Source: Acidithiobacillus thiooxidans ATCC 19377
GTDB lineage: Bacteria > Pseudomonadota > Gammaproteobacteria > Acidithiobacillales > Acidithiobacillaceae
Reading direction: 5' to 3'
DNA: 64,000 nt
Assembly: GCF_009662475.1 (NCBI RefSeq)
Contig: NZ_CP045571.1
Location: 3,346,501-3,410,500, forward strand
Under the pieces are notes generated by a model. That model was given only the letters and a program-made list of their open reading frames with translations, ran no database searches and was not told the origin of the DNA. Each line of letters starts with the position of its first letter. Position 1 is the first letter of the stretch. Positions 12,220 through 17,132 of this stretch are shown here, piece by piece. Made by a program: the position numbers and the translations under genes.

Positions 12220-13401
12220 TTAGGGCTTGATGTCGCGCCCCAAGCCATATTTTAGGCGGCGGGCAGGCAGATACCAGAACAAACCATCCAGCAGCATCAG
12301 GCAGCCCGCAGCAATCAGAATATAATCGGTGAAACTGTAGGGTGTCGCGCCCAGTATTTTGTGGATGGCCAGACCCAGGCCGATAAATGCCACCCCGGTG
12401 CGGATCAGCGACAACCCGGTTCGGGCGCGCGCGTAAGAGGCGCGGTGACTGGCGGCAATGGTGCGCTGAGCGGCGAGCATATTACGCTCGCGGGCCAGAT
12501 GGGTGCGCTCCTTGCTGGCCGGAACCGGGCGCAAAATCGAACAGTAATGGGGAATGGCCGCCGCCAGTCTGGCCAGGGCACTGTCATCCTCCGCCTCAAC
12601 CGGGGCTTCAGGAAGGTGATAACGATCGGTAAAGCGCACGTTCTCGGTCGTAATATCAATCAAGGCGCTTTGGCAGGGTAGATCCATGCGGCTGCCACGC
12701 ACTTTCAGATAATCGAACAAGCCGATCAGGGCCAGAACAATGCCGACCAACAAAATCGGCAGGTGGTAAGGTGAGAGGTCGTTGTGGGAGACTTTAGTCA
12801 GCACATTGGCCAGTGCCACCATGGCAAGCCCCCAGCGTAGCAACTTCATGGCCGTCCGGGCGCGGGCATGAGCGGTACGATGGGCAGCCAGCTTGGTGCG
12901 CCAGTGCGCCATGGTGTTACGCCAATAGGCCAAGCCCGTGCGCTCAATGCCAATGAGCAAGGGTGCCTCGGCATGCTTGTAGTCCTGTATGTACCAGCGG
13001 ATGTCTTCCTTGAGCGCGACACGAAATTCGTAATGATGGGCAGGGATCAGTTCCTGAACCTGGGCACGCATGCTCAGGTTGTTCGGGTCAGCCGCAGCGA
13101 TGATGACCGTATCGCCCATCTGCCGGATGGGAAACCACTCTCCGGTAAGCAGCACCTTGCCATCCAGGCCCGAAAACAACTGCGGCACGGGCAGGCGCTC
13201 ATCATATTGCGCGATAGCGCAGTCATAATGCCGGGCCAGCGCATCCAGCAAGGTGCAGCGCGTCACGGCCAATTCTTTCAATAAGATGCGTTCGGCGTCG
13301 ATACCGCGCTTGGCGGCACTATGTAGTGCCGACTGGAGCAGGGCTTCACTCAGAATGCCCTGCTCAACCAGGGGATAATAGGGAGATATTTCAGTGTTCA
13401 T
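12220..13401 (-). CDS. MshEN/GspE-N-like domain fused to two DUF202 membrane units
   Basis: 393 residues from the ATG at 13401, overlapping the previous gene by 11 bases. Residues about 8-140 resemble the N-terminal domain of GspE/MshE/PilB secretion ATPases: LVEQGILSEALLQSAL, then LLDALARHYDCAIAQYD, and an IIAAADPNN strand-turn. No ATPase domain follows. Instead there are two DUF202-type units: about 150-240 (ERTGLAYWRNTMAHWRTKLA plus two membrane helices) and about 296-385 (KERTHLARERNMLAAQRT plus two helices ending GLFWYLPARR). MshE N-domains are known to bind cyclic-di-GMP; binding here is inference. The role of DUF202 (YidH-like, also the C-terminus of eukaryotic VTC proteins) is unknown. 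I know no named system with this architecture. Confidence 0.85.
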   Translation of the reverse strand: MNTEISPYYPLVEQGILSEALLQSALHSAAKRGIDAERILLKELAVTRCTLLDALARHYDCAIAQYDERLPVPQLFSGLDGKVLLTGEWFPIRQMGDTVIIAAADPNNLSMRAQVQELIPAHHYEFRVALKEDIRWYIQDYKHAEAPLLIGIERTGLAYWRNTMAHWRTKLAAHRTAHARARTAMKLLRWGLAMVALANVLTKVSHNDLSPYHLPILLVGIVLALIGLFDYLKVRGSRMDLPCQSALIDITTENVRFTDRYHLPEAPVEAEDDSALARLAAAIPHYCSILRPVPASKERTHLARERNMLAAQRTIAASHRASYARARTGLSLIRTGVAFIGLGLAIHKILGATPYSFTDYILIAAGCLMLLDGLFWYLPARRLKYGLGRDIKP

Positions 13402-14884
13402 GCGGATAGTTGGTGCGCTTCCAGGCGCTTTTCGGCTGACTATAATCGGCATCGGCGATTTCAAAACTACCGTCGACAAGTGGTGAACTGCGCTTGACCC
13501 GTTCTGCCGGCAGATACCAGCGCAGGCCATCGACAATGAGATACAGGCCAATGATCACCAACGCGGCATCAAAAATTGTCCAGAGGATGTCTACATGGCC
13601 CGTAAATTCGAAGTAAATATAGAGTCCGGCGCCGACCGTCATGATGCTGAAGCCGGTGCGGATGAAAGCCATGCCGGTGCGCGCCCGGGCCATGACCGTC
13701 CGCAGCCGCGACATGACGTTGCGTTTGTCCGCAAGGGTTGTGCGTTCCAGCGCCAGGCCGGTAGTTGCAAAAACTCCTGGGCGCGCCTGCTCGGCATTGG
13801 CCTCAACTAGCGGATCTATATTGTGGGTATAAAGGCATAAAGAGGGAAAAATGCGGTCCCAAGGCCCGCGTTTGACGTGGGCATTACTCACCGCTTCCAG
13901 CGCCCTATTGGCGGCATCCCGCCCGGGATGGTACCAGAGAAAACCCTCCACCAGCATGAAAAGGCCAATCGCAATCAGACTCCAGTCAAAAATCGACCAG
14001 GGACCGGTAGGAAATTTGCGGATGAAGCCAATACCGATAGCCGCAAAGGCCACACCGGTCCGGGCAAAGGCGAGCCCCGTCCGCGCTTTGGCCATCATCG
14101 TCCGCAGATAGGCCAGAATGGTGCGTTCTTCGGCGAGATTGGTCCGGTCATTCGCCAGGAAACGCCGCCTCTCGACCGGAGAAAGTGCATCCCAGGCCTC
14201 ACGCAGTCCGGCAGCCACCGCAACCACCGGACTGCGTCGAAATGCCATCTGCCCGCCCGGATCAATGACATTCAGGGCTGAATAGTTTTCGGGAACCGCG
14301 TAGGGGAGATAGGTTTTGATGGCGCGCGACTCCTGTCGCGCCGGCAGATACCAGAGCAGGCCGTCAATCATGGCCAGAATCCCGAAAACCAGGAGTGGGA
14401 TTTCAAAAAACAACCAGGCCCCACCACCGAACAGGCGCAAAAAGGCGACACCAATACTGGTCAACGCGACCCCCGTGCGTGCCAGAGCCAGCCCGGTGCG
14501 GCTGCGCGCAAAACGGGTCCGTTGCGCGGAGTAGCGGGTGCGTTCTCCGGCCAGATAGGTACGGACCTTAGCCAGTGGTGTACGCCCGCCATATACGGGA
14601 AAATCGTCATTCAGATCAGCACTGTTTTCAATCAGACGAATGAGATCGGGGCGCGTGGCGACCCTGAAAGTGAGGTTTTCGACACCAAGGGTTTGCCGGA
14701 CATGCGCCAGCAAAGCCGGATCATCCGGTGTACAGACTATGACTTCAGCACTTTCCGCCGTCCAGGCCACAGGCAACCATAACTCGTTTCTCAGAGTGTC
14801 CACGTCGAGTCGGCGGAGGATTGCCTGAGATGCAACCAGCCCCTCGTCGTATTCGACCACGGGACAAGCATAGCGGTCCTTCAA
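13391..14884 (-). CDS. Membrane protein with three tandem DUF202 units and a partial MshEN-like N-terminus
   Basis: 497 residues from a TTG at 14884. Three DUF202-type units follow one another at about 110-190, 243-328 and 375-465. Each begins with an ERT-type helix series (GERTRYSAQRTRFARSRTGLA; DRTNLAEERTILAYLRT; ERTTLADKRNVMSRLRT) and ends with two membrane helices closing on GLLWYLPAR, GFLWYHPGR or GLRWYLPAE. The N-terminal about 95 residues match the second half of a GspE/MshE N-domain. In-frame sequence stays open up to 15002 and still resembles that domain (about 10 more residues, ALPKEKLIDDLKDRY), but holds no ATG, GTG or TTG. The true start is therefore uncertain: a rare start codon, or an N-terminally eroded gene. 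Co-transcribed with the following MshEN-DUF202 gene. Confidence 0.82.
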   Translation of the reverse strand: MKDRYACPVVEYDEGLVASQAILRRLDVDTLRNELWLPVAWTAESAEVIVCTPDDPALLAHVRQTLGVENLTFRVATRPDLIRLIENSADLNDDFPVYGGRTPLAKVRTYLAGERTRYSAQRTRFARSRTGLALARTGVALTSIGVAFLRLFGGGAWLFFEIPLLVFGILAMIDGLLWYLPARQESRAIKTYLPYAVPENYSALNVIDPGGQMAFRRSPVVAVAAGLREAWDALSPVERRRFLANDRTNLAEERTILAYLRTMMAKARTGLAFARTGVAFAAIGIGFIRKFPTGPWSIFDWSLIAIGLFMLVEGFLWYHPGRDAANRALEAVSNAHVKRGPWDRIFPSLCLYTHNIDPLVEANAEQARPGVFATTGLALERTTLADKRNVMSRLRTVMARARTGMAFIRTGFSIMTVGAGLYIYFEFTGHVDILWTIFDAALVIIGLYLIVDGLRWYLPAERVKRSSPLVDGSFEIADADYSQPKSAWKRTNYPHEH

Positions 14885-14958
14885 GTCATCAATCAGTTTC
14901 TCTTTTGGTAATGCTTCTATCGTAATACCCCAAATAAATAACCATCGGCAGCACAGTA

Positions 14959-14982
14959 CTGCGCAGACAAATATCTGCGCAG
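14959..14982 (-). promoter_or_regulatory. Leader hairpin upstream of the DUF202 operon
   Basis: Perfect 9-bp inverted repeat CTGCGCAGA/TCTGCGCAG (14959-14967 with 14974-14982) around a 6-base loop. A third CGCAGA copy lies just beyond. It falls between the predicted promoter and the first gene, in the transcribed leader. No T-tract follows on either strand, so it is not an intrinsic terminator; it could be an operator or an mRNA structure. Confidence 0.5.
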
Positions 14983-15003
14983 ATACGCAGATGCAAACCG
15001 CCT

Positions 15004-15033
15004 ATTATAAACAAATCGTGGCAGCAGTGACCA
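15004..15033 (-). promoter_or_regulatory. Probable sigma-70 promoter of the DUF202 operon
   Basis: Minus strand: TGGTCA (15033-15028, 4 of 6 to the -35 consensus), an 18-base spacer, and a perfect TATAAT (15009-15004). It points at the two DUF202 genes, with transcription predicted to start near 14997. Confidence 0.6.
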
Positions 15034-15096: not shown

Positions 15097-15136
15097 AAAA
15101 AAGGATGCATGGACAGCAAGCTGTCTTATGCATCCT
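15097..15136 (-). terminator. Intrinsic terminator after the dsrE-like gene
   Basis: Strong long hairpin: outer arms AGGATGCAT (15102-15110) and ATGCATCCT (15128-15136), and an inner ACAGC/GCTGT stem. On the minus strand it is followed directly by a run of T (complement of 15097-15102). It starts 29 bases after the stop codon of the DsrE-like gene. Confidence 0.88.
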
Positions 15137-15705: not shown

Positions 15706-17031
15706 TCAAAAGGCAATCATCGCCTGCATGGCAAATTCATTATCCACGGCATCAGAAATACTATTCGCAACAGGATTAGGCTGATGCGGTACATCCAGCG
15801 TCCGGAAGTAGTAACCGGCCATGATTTTGGTCAGTGGCGTGAAGTGATACTGCAGACCGATAGCCCAGGTCTTGAAAATGCGTTGCTGTGCTGGATCATT
15901 GGGCAAGCGGTCGTAATAGTCATAACGTAAATTCGCTTCAATATGCTTGGTCAAAAACAAGCCGCCTTCCAGCATGTAACCATTAGCCGTGTTCTCACTG
16001 CCGGGATAAAGTTGGGTGTTGGTCAGTGGTGCAGCCAGACCAGGGGCGCTGCTGAATGCCGAAGCTGCCGATATCCAGCCGGTACCACGCATGTACTGGA
16101 AGCGGAATTGCCTGCCCCATTGGTGCATATAACCCTGCAAATACTGCACATCCACGCCGTAGCGATTCATACTGTAACTGGTGTCATTCAATTCAGGGCT
16201 GGCATGTTGATACCAGATACCCGCCTGCACATCGCTACGGAAGGGCCCTTTCCCCCCGAATATATAAGCTTCCTGCAAGCGCGCTGCATACAAAGGACTG
16301 CTGGATTGATTGCCGGCGGCCACCGTGCCAAACATTCCAATCATGGCGCCGTAGGTAAATTCCCAGTGACCGTTACGGAACCAGTCAAAGGCCATGATGC
16401 CTGGATAGCGGAAGGCATTAACACCCAGAGTCTGTTGACCATTAATCAAGTAGGCATTCAGTTTAGTATTGATTTTGTAAGGATTGCTGGAGTTATACAT
16501 TGGTTGCTGCATCAATTGCCCAATCATCGTCGATGACAACACAAAGTTATAACTCATGAATCCTTGCATGGCTCCTTCGGCACTAGGCGCACGAATAAGG
16601 CCCGCTTCAATTCTGGCCCCTGGAATATAACTGAAGGTAAAATGCCCATCAATAAGACCAGGTTGATAACCGCCACGCACATGCGTGAAACCATTATCAC
16701 CAAACTCCCCACCAAAAAAATAGGAAATATGCTTGTTCAGGTTTCCGCGCAACATGATTCGTGCTCGCAGAATATTAGCGGTAGTGCTTTGCGAAAATCC
16801 GGGCGCTATAAGATCAATGTGTGGGATCTGGTTATTTTCAAGGCTGTCTTCATTACCGGGTTGCGCATAAAGACTGGGCTCAATAAACCCAGAAACACCA
16901 AATATCGGGGCTTTGGCAGGAGATATCCCCTGCAATTCAAACCAGTTGGCGGCATGGGCTAACGGGGATAAACCAAGCATGGCTGCTGCGACAATAAGCG
17001 TGTTTCTGGAAATTTTATGGCCGTGATACAT
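15706..17031 (-). CDS. Outer-membrane porin, phosphate-selective-porin-like
   Basis: About 441 residues from the ATG at 17031, which has a GAGGTG site 6 bases upstream; ATG at 17037 is an alternative. A signal peptide (about residues 1-27, ending SPLAHA-ANWFELQG) is followed by alternating aromatic/hydrophobic beta-strand sequence throughout. Examples are ANILRARIMLRGNLNKHISYFFGGEFG and LEGGLFLTKHIEANLRYDYY. The C-terminal residue is Phe (QAMIAF), the outer-membrane sorting signal. The general look is that of the OprO/OprP or short-chain-amide porin group, but the substrate cannot be read. It is the first gene after the sigma-54 promoter at 17133-17148 and is followed by the secreted DsrE-like gene, which hints at a sulfur-compound or anion uptake role (inference). 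Confidence 0.82.
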   Translation of the reverse strand: MYHGHKISRNTLIVAAAMLGLSPLAHAANWFELQGISPAKAPIFGVSGFIEPSLYAQPGNEDSLENNQIPHIDLIAPGFSQSTTANILRARIMLRGNLNKHISYFFGGEFGDNGFTHVRGGYQPGLIDGHFTFSYIPGARIEAGLIRAPSAEGAMQGFMSYNFVLSSTMIGQLMQQPMYNSSNPYKINTKLNAYLINGQQTLGVNAFRYPGIMAFDWFRNGHWEFTYGAMIGMFGTVAAGNQSSSPLYAARLQEAYIFGGKGPFRSDVQAGIWYQHASPELNDTSYSMNRYGVDVQYLQGYMHQWGRQFRFQYMRGTGWISAASAFSSAPGLAAPLTNTQLYPGSENTANGYMLEGGLFLTKHIEANLRYDYYDRLPNDPAQQRIFKTWAIGLQYHFTPLTKIMAGYYFRTLDVPHQPNPVANSISDAVDNEFAMQAMIAF

Positions 17032-17132
17032 GTTCATCACCTCGTAATGTTTTGGCTGAATTTTTATATTATGAAATAAGCGACGACCAACAACTCGGGA
17101 ATACCGCTGACCTTCGCCTTACAAAAAATGGC

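Follow-up and report, generated by a model that had tools for sequence, protein, structure and literature searches.

A conserved two-gene operon of Acidithiobacillus thiooxidans that joins MshEN-like domains to three plus two DUF202 membrane units

Introduction

The closest described counterpart of the locus analyzed here is the VTC complex of yeast, whose membrane parts we take to be DUF202 domains. This complex is a 3:1:1 pentamer (three Vtc1, one Vtc3, and one Vtc4) with fifteen transmembrane (TM) helices, and its channel is built by the five TM1 helices and lined by K24 and R31 of Vtc1, according to passages of PMC9911596. The same passages report that replacing the channel residues in any subunit abolished vacuolar polyphosphate (PMC9911596). 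A second kind of system, the ATPases MshE, PilB, and GspE, carries the MshEN domain (PF05157), in which the site for cyclic di-GMP (c-di-GMP) consists of two 24-residue motifs (RLGxx...LxxxLxxQ) in the N-terminal subdomain (passages of PMC5013675). Here, we analyzed a stretch of 64,000 nt of the genome of Acidithiobacillus thiooxidans ATCC 19377 (NZ_CP045571.1), hereafter the window, to which all positions refer, and we describe in it a two-gene operon that joins MshEN-like domains to five DUF202 units. The operon is real and conserved, and a VTC-like design of five units is our best lead.

The natural 3+2 set bears on how polyphosphate may be moved or held at the membrane in bacteria. Since a natural concatemer fixes the number and order of the units, it offers a direct test of a VTC-like five-fold DUF202 assembly in these organisms.

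Results

The operon encodes three plus two DUF202 units

The operon comprises two minus-strand genes, gene 1 at 13391-14920 and gene 2 at 12220-13401, which overlap by 11 bases. The first encodes 509 residues, with the C-terminal subdomain of MshEN and three DUF202 units, and the second, which starts on ATG, encodes 393 residues with a whole MshEN and two further units. We built one hidden Markov model (HMM) per unit, five in total, each over 21 lineages. In the window, they matched gene 1 at three places and gene 2 at two, and at E<=0.01 the same 3+2 count was obtained in 21/21 lineages, with one weak overlapping double match inside unit 4 of one lineage. This bears out the two overlapping genes with three and two DUF202-type units that an initial annotation, made by a model from the letters and open reading frames only, had proposed. 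The units lie on the minus strand at residues 116-195 (U1, 14336-14575), 248-334 (U2, 13919-14179), and 386-473 (U3, 13502-13765) of gene 1, and at residues 148-235 (U4, 12697-12960) and 292-381 (U5, 12259-12528) of gene 2.

Pfam DUF202 (PF02656) matches gene 1 with an E-value of 1.2e-14 and 55 bits, over its cut-off of 23.4 bits, and places the domain at residues 407-469 within U3. Gene 2 alone gives 4.7e-4 and 21.0 bits, which is under that cut-off; its units match the HMMs of the gene 1 units with E-values from 6.8e-5 to 1.2e-20 (search space set to 10000). The MshEN model matches residues 26-99 of gene 1 (14624-14845, E = 4.9e-9) and residues 65-145 of gene 2 (12967-13209, E = 8.6e-11). 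Hence, the profile search that the initial annotation had suggested as a check succeeds for MshEN in both genes and for DUF202 in gene 1, and falls short of the threshold for DUF202 in gene 2. Both domains were matched at E<=0.01, for each gene, in 13/13 members scanned. A Pfam scan at E<=10 gave no match to the T2SSE ATPase in either protein, which agrees with the early remark that no ATPase is present, and the Pfam scan gave no SPX match in either protein.

The ERT...RT motif of DUF202 is recognizable by its arginines: those of levels 0 and +1 are invariant in the five units of 21/21 lineages. The residue preceding the first arginine of the motif is A or S and not E, and in U4 the motif ends in RW. 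The LWYLPAR ending ascribed at first sight to all units is partly retained, with WYLPAR in units 1 and 5, a near-match in unit 3 (WYLPAE), and no such ending in units 2 and 4. A six-frame PF02656 search of the genome listed five other places, the operon not being among them, which suggests that automated scans may overlook it. Our literature searches returned no paper pairing MshEN with DUF202, nor DUF202 with Acidithiobacillus, and no described family of this design, as had been supposed from the start. The operon is thus a conserved two-gene membrane assembly that is undescribed as a family within the searches made.

Each unit opens with a ladder of arginines

Each unit opens with an arginine at every seventh residue, five or six times consecutively. 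These are residues 120, 127, 134, 141, and 148 in U1; 252, 259, 266, 273, 280, and 287 in U2; 393, 400, 407, 414, and 421 in U3; 154, 161, 168, 175, 182, and 189 in U4; and 299, 306, 313, 320, 327, and 334 in U5. When the corresponding 50-residue stretches were shuffled, between 0 and 22 of 20000 shuffles per unit reached five to six arginines at i,i+7. Across the 21 lineages, the heptad arginines are invariant at 28/28 positions, against 165/279 invariant columns in the same segments (hypergeometric 1.5e-7, a value that ignores relatedness and was chosen after the fact). Once the ladder is registered on the ERT position of DUF202, 25 arginines form five complete levels of five, and three more stand in a sixth level. 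Mean identity reaches 0.89-0.94 in the arginine helices, compared with 0.74 in the MshEN of gene 1 and, in gene 2, 0.79 in the C-subdomain and 0.66 in the N-subdomain. Structure models give, with low confidence, two successive helices in each unit, the first of them 50-57 residues long.

Distribution and fixity of the 3+2 set

The genome survey proposed together with the initial annotation was run, and the same pair was found in 14/29, 5/5, and 2/2 genomes of three families. In the operon's own family (Acidithiobacillus relatives), 14 of 29 genomes have an intact gene 1, each together with gene 2, and in two further genomes the operon is damaged or cut. In 13 of the 29 genomes, we saw no gene 1 match beyond single DUF202 stretches, which suggests that the operon was gained or lost inside the family. 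The two other families are also gammaproteobacterial, and a search of the order of the first of them gave the same five genomes. Eight named relatives were found, all titled Acidithiobacillus. In a class-wide even sample of 369 genomes, full-length matches were confined to the three families (7/369 with the gene 2 alignment and 6/369 with the gene 1 alignment, the two samples overlapping heavily). In a phylum sample of 398 genomes, the sole full-length match was the window's own genome; the distribution searches first score a limited number of candidates per genome, so that absence in them is not absolute.

The counts over 21 lineages exclude two of the 23 carrier genomes. In one (G006), gene 1 is without its first part and gene 2 lies in two frames, and locus L011 looks like the same copy; in the other (G773), gene 1 is in two pieces whose coordinates give different frames. 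All 21 intact lineages, from the three families, have the 3+2 arrangement. In a tree of the 105 units, U1 to U4 each stand on one side of a branch (99/96, 96/88, 100/99, and 100/100, respectively), U5 is the remainder around the midpoint root, and all five labels need four changes, the minimum possible. Built on only 89 columns, the tree shows long branches and unsettled bootstrap values, and its inner order is therefore not trustworthy. The grouping of the units by position indicates that they are old and not interchangeable: judging from these sequences, they were distinct before the three families parted, and none has replaced another since.

A mobile-element origin was considered and rejected, as plasmids gave no match to gene 1 and the gene 2 alignment led to no confirmed viral contig.

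The MshEN-type domains lack most c-di-GMP residues

Both proteins had been described as starting with an MshE-type N-terminal domain. Gene 2 does have the whole domain, whereas gene 1 has its C-terminal subdomain only, the N-subdomain being missing. The model of gene 2 fits MshE (5htl) over residues 3-142, with a Z of 13.2 and a root-mean-square deviation of 3.6 for 138 residues. According to the alignment, the N-subdomain of gene 2 (13222-13401, minus strand) has lost most c-di-GMP residues, and of the parts of gene 2 measured it shows the lowest conservation. With the ligand positions taken from this alignment, extended without gaps to R9-G11, we found L10, G11, Q32, R38, G40, G47, and Q61 kept in 0/21 lineages, R9 in 2/21, L29 in 4/21, and L39 in 6/21; mostly retained are G18 (18/21), L25 and L54 (19/21 each), and L58 (21/21). 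A relaxed c-di-GMP motif is present in 0/21 gene 2 proteins (first 150 residues) and in 0/21 gene 1 proteins (first 110 residues). As controls, the motif was found in 3/3 MshE/PilB segments and in 1/4 readable ATPases of the same genome. It was silent in 16/16 other ATPases, and its absence is thus common among MshEN domains; of the ATPases with an inner MshEN, 0/14 examined hold it.

These results bear on the proposal, made with the initial annotation, of a nucleotide-responsive device gated at the membrane by c-di-GMP. The MshEN fold is clear in gene 2, some hydrophobic contact residues are retained, and the NCBIfam c-di-GMP motif model gives 19.2 bits and matches 9/13 members at E<=1. However, 19.2 is far below the cut-off of 38, five ligand residues (G11, Q32, R38, G40, and Q61) and the relaxed motif are kept in none of the lineages, and gene 1 is without the binding subdomain. 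We therefore regard such a device as very improbable and reject c-di-GMP sensing on residues and motif, with controls that work in part. For the MshEN domains, the pattern of conservation makes a docking role more likely than sensing, and more generally an MshEN match alone must not be taken as c-di-GMP sensing.

In the same genome, a T2SSE-type ATPase (L128, G000:C1:2200501-2205000) carries one match to the c-di-GMP motif and is a likelier c-di-GMP effector here. Passages of an inventory of second messengers in Acidithiobacillus list MshE among the putative effectors (PMC6416229).

Searched with the gene 2 profile, the nearest MshEN relatives are ATPases of ~750-880 residues with an inner MshEN (E down to 2.5e-20); they differ in their ATPase architecture, and no DUF202 was seen in them. 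A GAF domain before the MshEN of these ATPases was named from reading four sequences and not by a search.

Docking by MshEN would also suit an adaptor of type IV pili or type II secretion, in which the domain docks to partners like those that bind the N-domains of GspE and PilB, and DUF202 serves only as a membrane anchor. GspL and PilM are partners of this kind, as is PilZ in solved complexes. The C-part of MshEN is kept in both proteins, at the mean identities of 0.74 and 0.79 given above, the gene 2 model fits the structures of MshE and XpsE as well as that of the PilB N-domain in complex with PilZ, and the nearest MshEN relatives sit in ATPases of ~770 residues. Yet the strongest conservation is that of the arginine helices and not of MshEN. 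T2SSE ATPases occur in 23/23 carriers, but they occur in 36/36 genomes, carriers or not, and are hence uninformative. Of the six window neighbors scanned, none is a pilus or secretion gene, and the five loci from the two other families have no neighbor in common with the own family. On balance, we find such an adaptor rather unlikely.

A probable non-AUG start of gene 1

Gene 1 probably begins on ATA at 14918-14920 (minus strand), and the alignment of its relatives points to a lasting non-AUG start. At this codon, 17 of 21 lineages have ATA (12), ATT (3), or ATC (2), and ATG is found there in 0/17 of these ATN lineages. The codon follows GGGG, GGAG, or GAGG by seven bases (nine in two lineages), as found with a list of ten Shine-Dalgarno words and spacers of 4-12. 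In the window, the Shine-Dalgarno-like GGGG lies at 14928-14931, seven bases before ATA; such a run precedes the ATN codon in 17/17 ATN lineages, and the window and four close relatives are identical from GGGG through ATA. With 17 lineages in agreement, a sequencing error is an unlikely explanation.

Alternatives to this codon are scarce in part of the lineages. In 8/17 ATN lineages, there is no in-frame ATG, GTG, or TTG from the upstream stop to the conserved core. The other 9/17 have at least one, which in most cases lies far upstream or is a TTG nine codons ahead of the core; in the window, the alternatives are this TTG and a GTG that precedes the core by one codon. For those nine lineages, the ATN start is favored by the alignment and not forced. 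The four remaining lineages lack such a leader and have their in-frame ATG codons at other places. The ATN start is seen in the own family and in the second family, not in the third. AUU is also the start codon of infC. Complexes on non-canonical codons are lost faster through the action of IF3 (passages of PMC8266586). If true, an AUA/AUU/AUC start would represent persistent non-AUG initiation, which is rare in bacteria, and it could be tested at little cost.

Promoter, leader, and surroundings

A promoter-like site, TGGTCA - 18 - TATAAT, is predicted on the minus strand at 15004-15033. Its perfect TATAAT (15004-15009), pointed out in the initial annotation, is invariant in 5/5 aligned sequences (the window and four relatives). 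The rest of the claim is less secure: the -35 element is TGGTCA, the spacer has 18 bases, and promoter-like matches in the region (4, against 2.4 with a standard deviation of 1.5 in shuffles) are not clearly above the shuffled sequences. The leader hairpin noted at the same time was found at 14959-14982 (minus strand), with 10 pairs and a loop of 4, inside a 114-base RNA fold (14900-15013, z of -2.56), and its form is only roughly kept in relatives. Further upstream, between a DsrE-like gene and the operon, a hairpin with a T run at 15103-15135 (minus strand, z of -4.14) is largely kept in the window and four relatives; a terminator scan with narrower rules did not list it. The succession of this hairpin and T run and then TATAAT suggests that the operon is probably its own transcription unit.

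In the own family, DsrE-like and porin-like genes often adjoin the operon. In the window, the porin-like protein, named by eye, has 444 residues (15709-17040, minus strand) and no Pfam match at E<=0.001. A shared gene neighborhood was rejected, as 0/5 loci of the other two families (L064-L068) have those neighbors; the genes found there, seen by eye only, looked like unrelated housekeeping genes.

Discussion

The explanation that we favor as a whole, with a probability of roughly 0.4, is by analogy with VTC: a single complex of five DUF202 units with an arginine-lined conduit for an anion or polyanion, to which the MshEN domains would add docking. The two proteins would form one inner-membrane complex with exactly five DUF202 units, of which the first protein would supply three, covalently joined, and the second protein two. 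Their five long helices would stand side by side around an axis, like the five TM1 helices of yeast VTC, and the arginines would make stacked rings (five full rings of five and a partial one) from the membrane into the cytoplasm. Such rings may guide or hold an anion or polyanion, for which polyphosphate is the best candidate. The two MshEN-type domains would be cytoplasmic and, instead of sensing c-di-GMP, would provide docking or gating to a partner protein. The predicted topology, with two helices per unit leading in and out again, would permit joining units in one chain, which three helices would not. The AUA/AUU/AUC start, finally, would keep the translation of the first cistron low or dependent on IF3.

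The closed, arginine-lined structure of five helices is suggested by the VTC passages cited above and by an alignment of the ERT motif with R31. In the weak alignment of Vtc1 with a DUF202 protein of the same genome (E of 0.026), the arginine of ERT corresponds to R31, with K24 seven residues earlier. The operon encodes five units, and its complex may hold five, as that of VTC does. The basic residues seven apart of TM1 have their counterpart in the 28/28 invariant heptad arginines, whose pore-lining position is only predicted. A link between polyphosphate and metals in acidophiles makes polyphosphate a plausible ligand, no more (passages of PMC10892726). Of the initial proposal, the conserved membrane assembly and a possible polyphosphate link by way of DUF202 and VTC are supported, and its nucleotide-responsive part is not.

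Several observations weigh against this explanation. The 3+2 arrangement is, as far as the sequences tell, one ancestral set that was retained, and the 21 lineages are thus not 21 independent choices of five. The arginine register was picked after seeing the data, and six small DUF202 proteins carry three or four arginine heptads, so that the ladder is an extension of a trait present in the family. The alignment with Vtc1 is weak and comes from another DUF202 protein, not from the operon; no VTC chain was found with a second DUF202 protein or with either operon protein, and no PDB chain was matched by the gene 1 profile. No VTC chain was among the 50 matches listed by Foldseek for either model, or by VIA, which says little for models of this low confidence, and since long helices match anything. 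The own genome has 0 matches to the VTC-type polymerase (PF09359), and no polyphosphate gene was recognized among the operon's neighbors, either by eye or in scans of six of those in the window. PPK1 is present in 23/23 carriers but also in 13/13 non-carriers; being in 36/36 genomes, its co-occurrence is uninformative and was dropped as evidence for polyphosphate. In VTC itself, replacing K24 and R31 of Vtc1 raised synthesis in vitro (passages of PMC9911596). Finally, the models are weak (mean predicted local distance difference test scores of 58.3 and 65.9). In a hydropathy scan, the second helix was flagged as membrane-spanning in 5/5 units and the arginine-bearing first helix only in U2 and U5, and no third membrane helix per unit was flagged, unlike in VTC.

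The last points would fit a membrane scaffold without a pore, or a lipid-binding coiled coil, whose Arg-Thr heptads would offer a surface to which acidic lipid heads, nucleic acid, or polyphosphate bind, without the units forming a ring. Coiled coils show regular heptads too, the models are too weak for helix placement, 3/5 first helices were not flagged as membrane-spanning, and the channel is a prediction. Nevertheless, five fixed, non-interchangeable units with complete arginine levels suit a closed ring better than an open scaffold, and the solved VTC complex is a channel made from five such units (passages of PMC9911596). We consider the scaffold unlikely.

The same arginine evidence could also be read as a channel for small anions (phosphate, sulfate, or chloride), or as a charge barrier in acid-living cells, with no polymer conduit. 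Acidithiobacillus are acidophiles, and the eight named relatives all bear this name. However, with the canonical rise of a helix, the stacked arginine rings would extend over ~40 A, which exceeds what a small-anion filter needs, and this reading seems to us improbable.

The conduit can be specified further, as a pre-joined, hetero-pentameric polyphosphate conduit of bacteria. It would have 3+2 non-identical DUF202 units, a tube of at least five stacked rings of five arginines, ligand-free MshEN domains as docking caps, and a three-unit chain kept low by the AUA/AUU/AUC start retained in two families. With all these details taken together, the proposal is unlikely, if slightly less so than the pilus or secretion adaptor.

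We can now place the operon among known systems. Small bacterial DUF202 proteins are matched by the unit HMMs (L029 and L063 best), and the six examined have one or two ERT stretches each and no MshEN seen by eye. The own genome also encodes two proteins of ~220 residues (L001 and L003), each with two DUF202-like ERT stretches; L003 gives weak alignments to Vtc1 and to Vtc4. With MshE, PilB, and GspE, the operon shares the fold and the Pfam family of the MshEN domain, and it differs from these ATPases in having no ATPase, in the loss of most c-di-GMP residues, and in the reduction of gene 1 to the C-subdomain. The ATPases with an inner MshEN remain its closest MshEN kin. The likeness to VTC lies in the TM1 basic residues seven apart (K24/R31) and in what would be five related membrane units per complex. 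In VTC, the units are separate chains of three TM helices each, whereas in the operon they are joined as 3+2, with two helices per unit predicted. VTC has SPX and polymerase domains where the operon has MshEN-like N-terminal domains and, compared with VTC, all five units of the operon differ from one another and carry longer arginine heptads (5-6).

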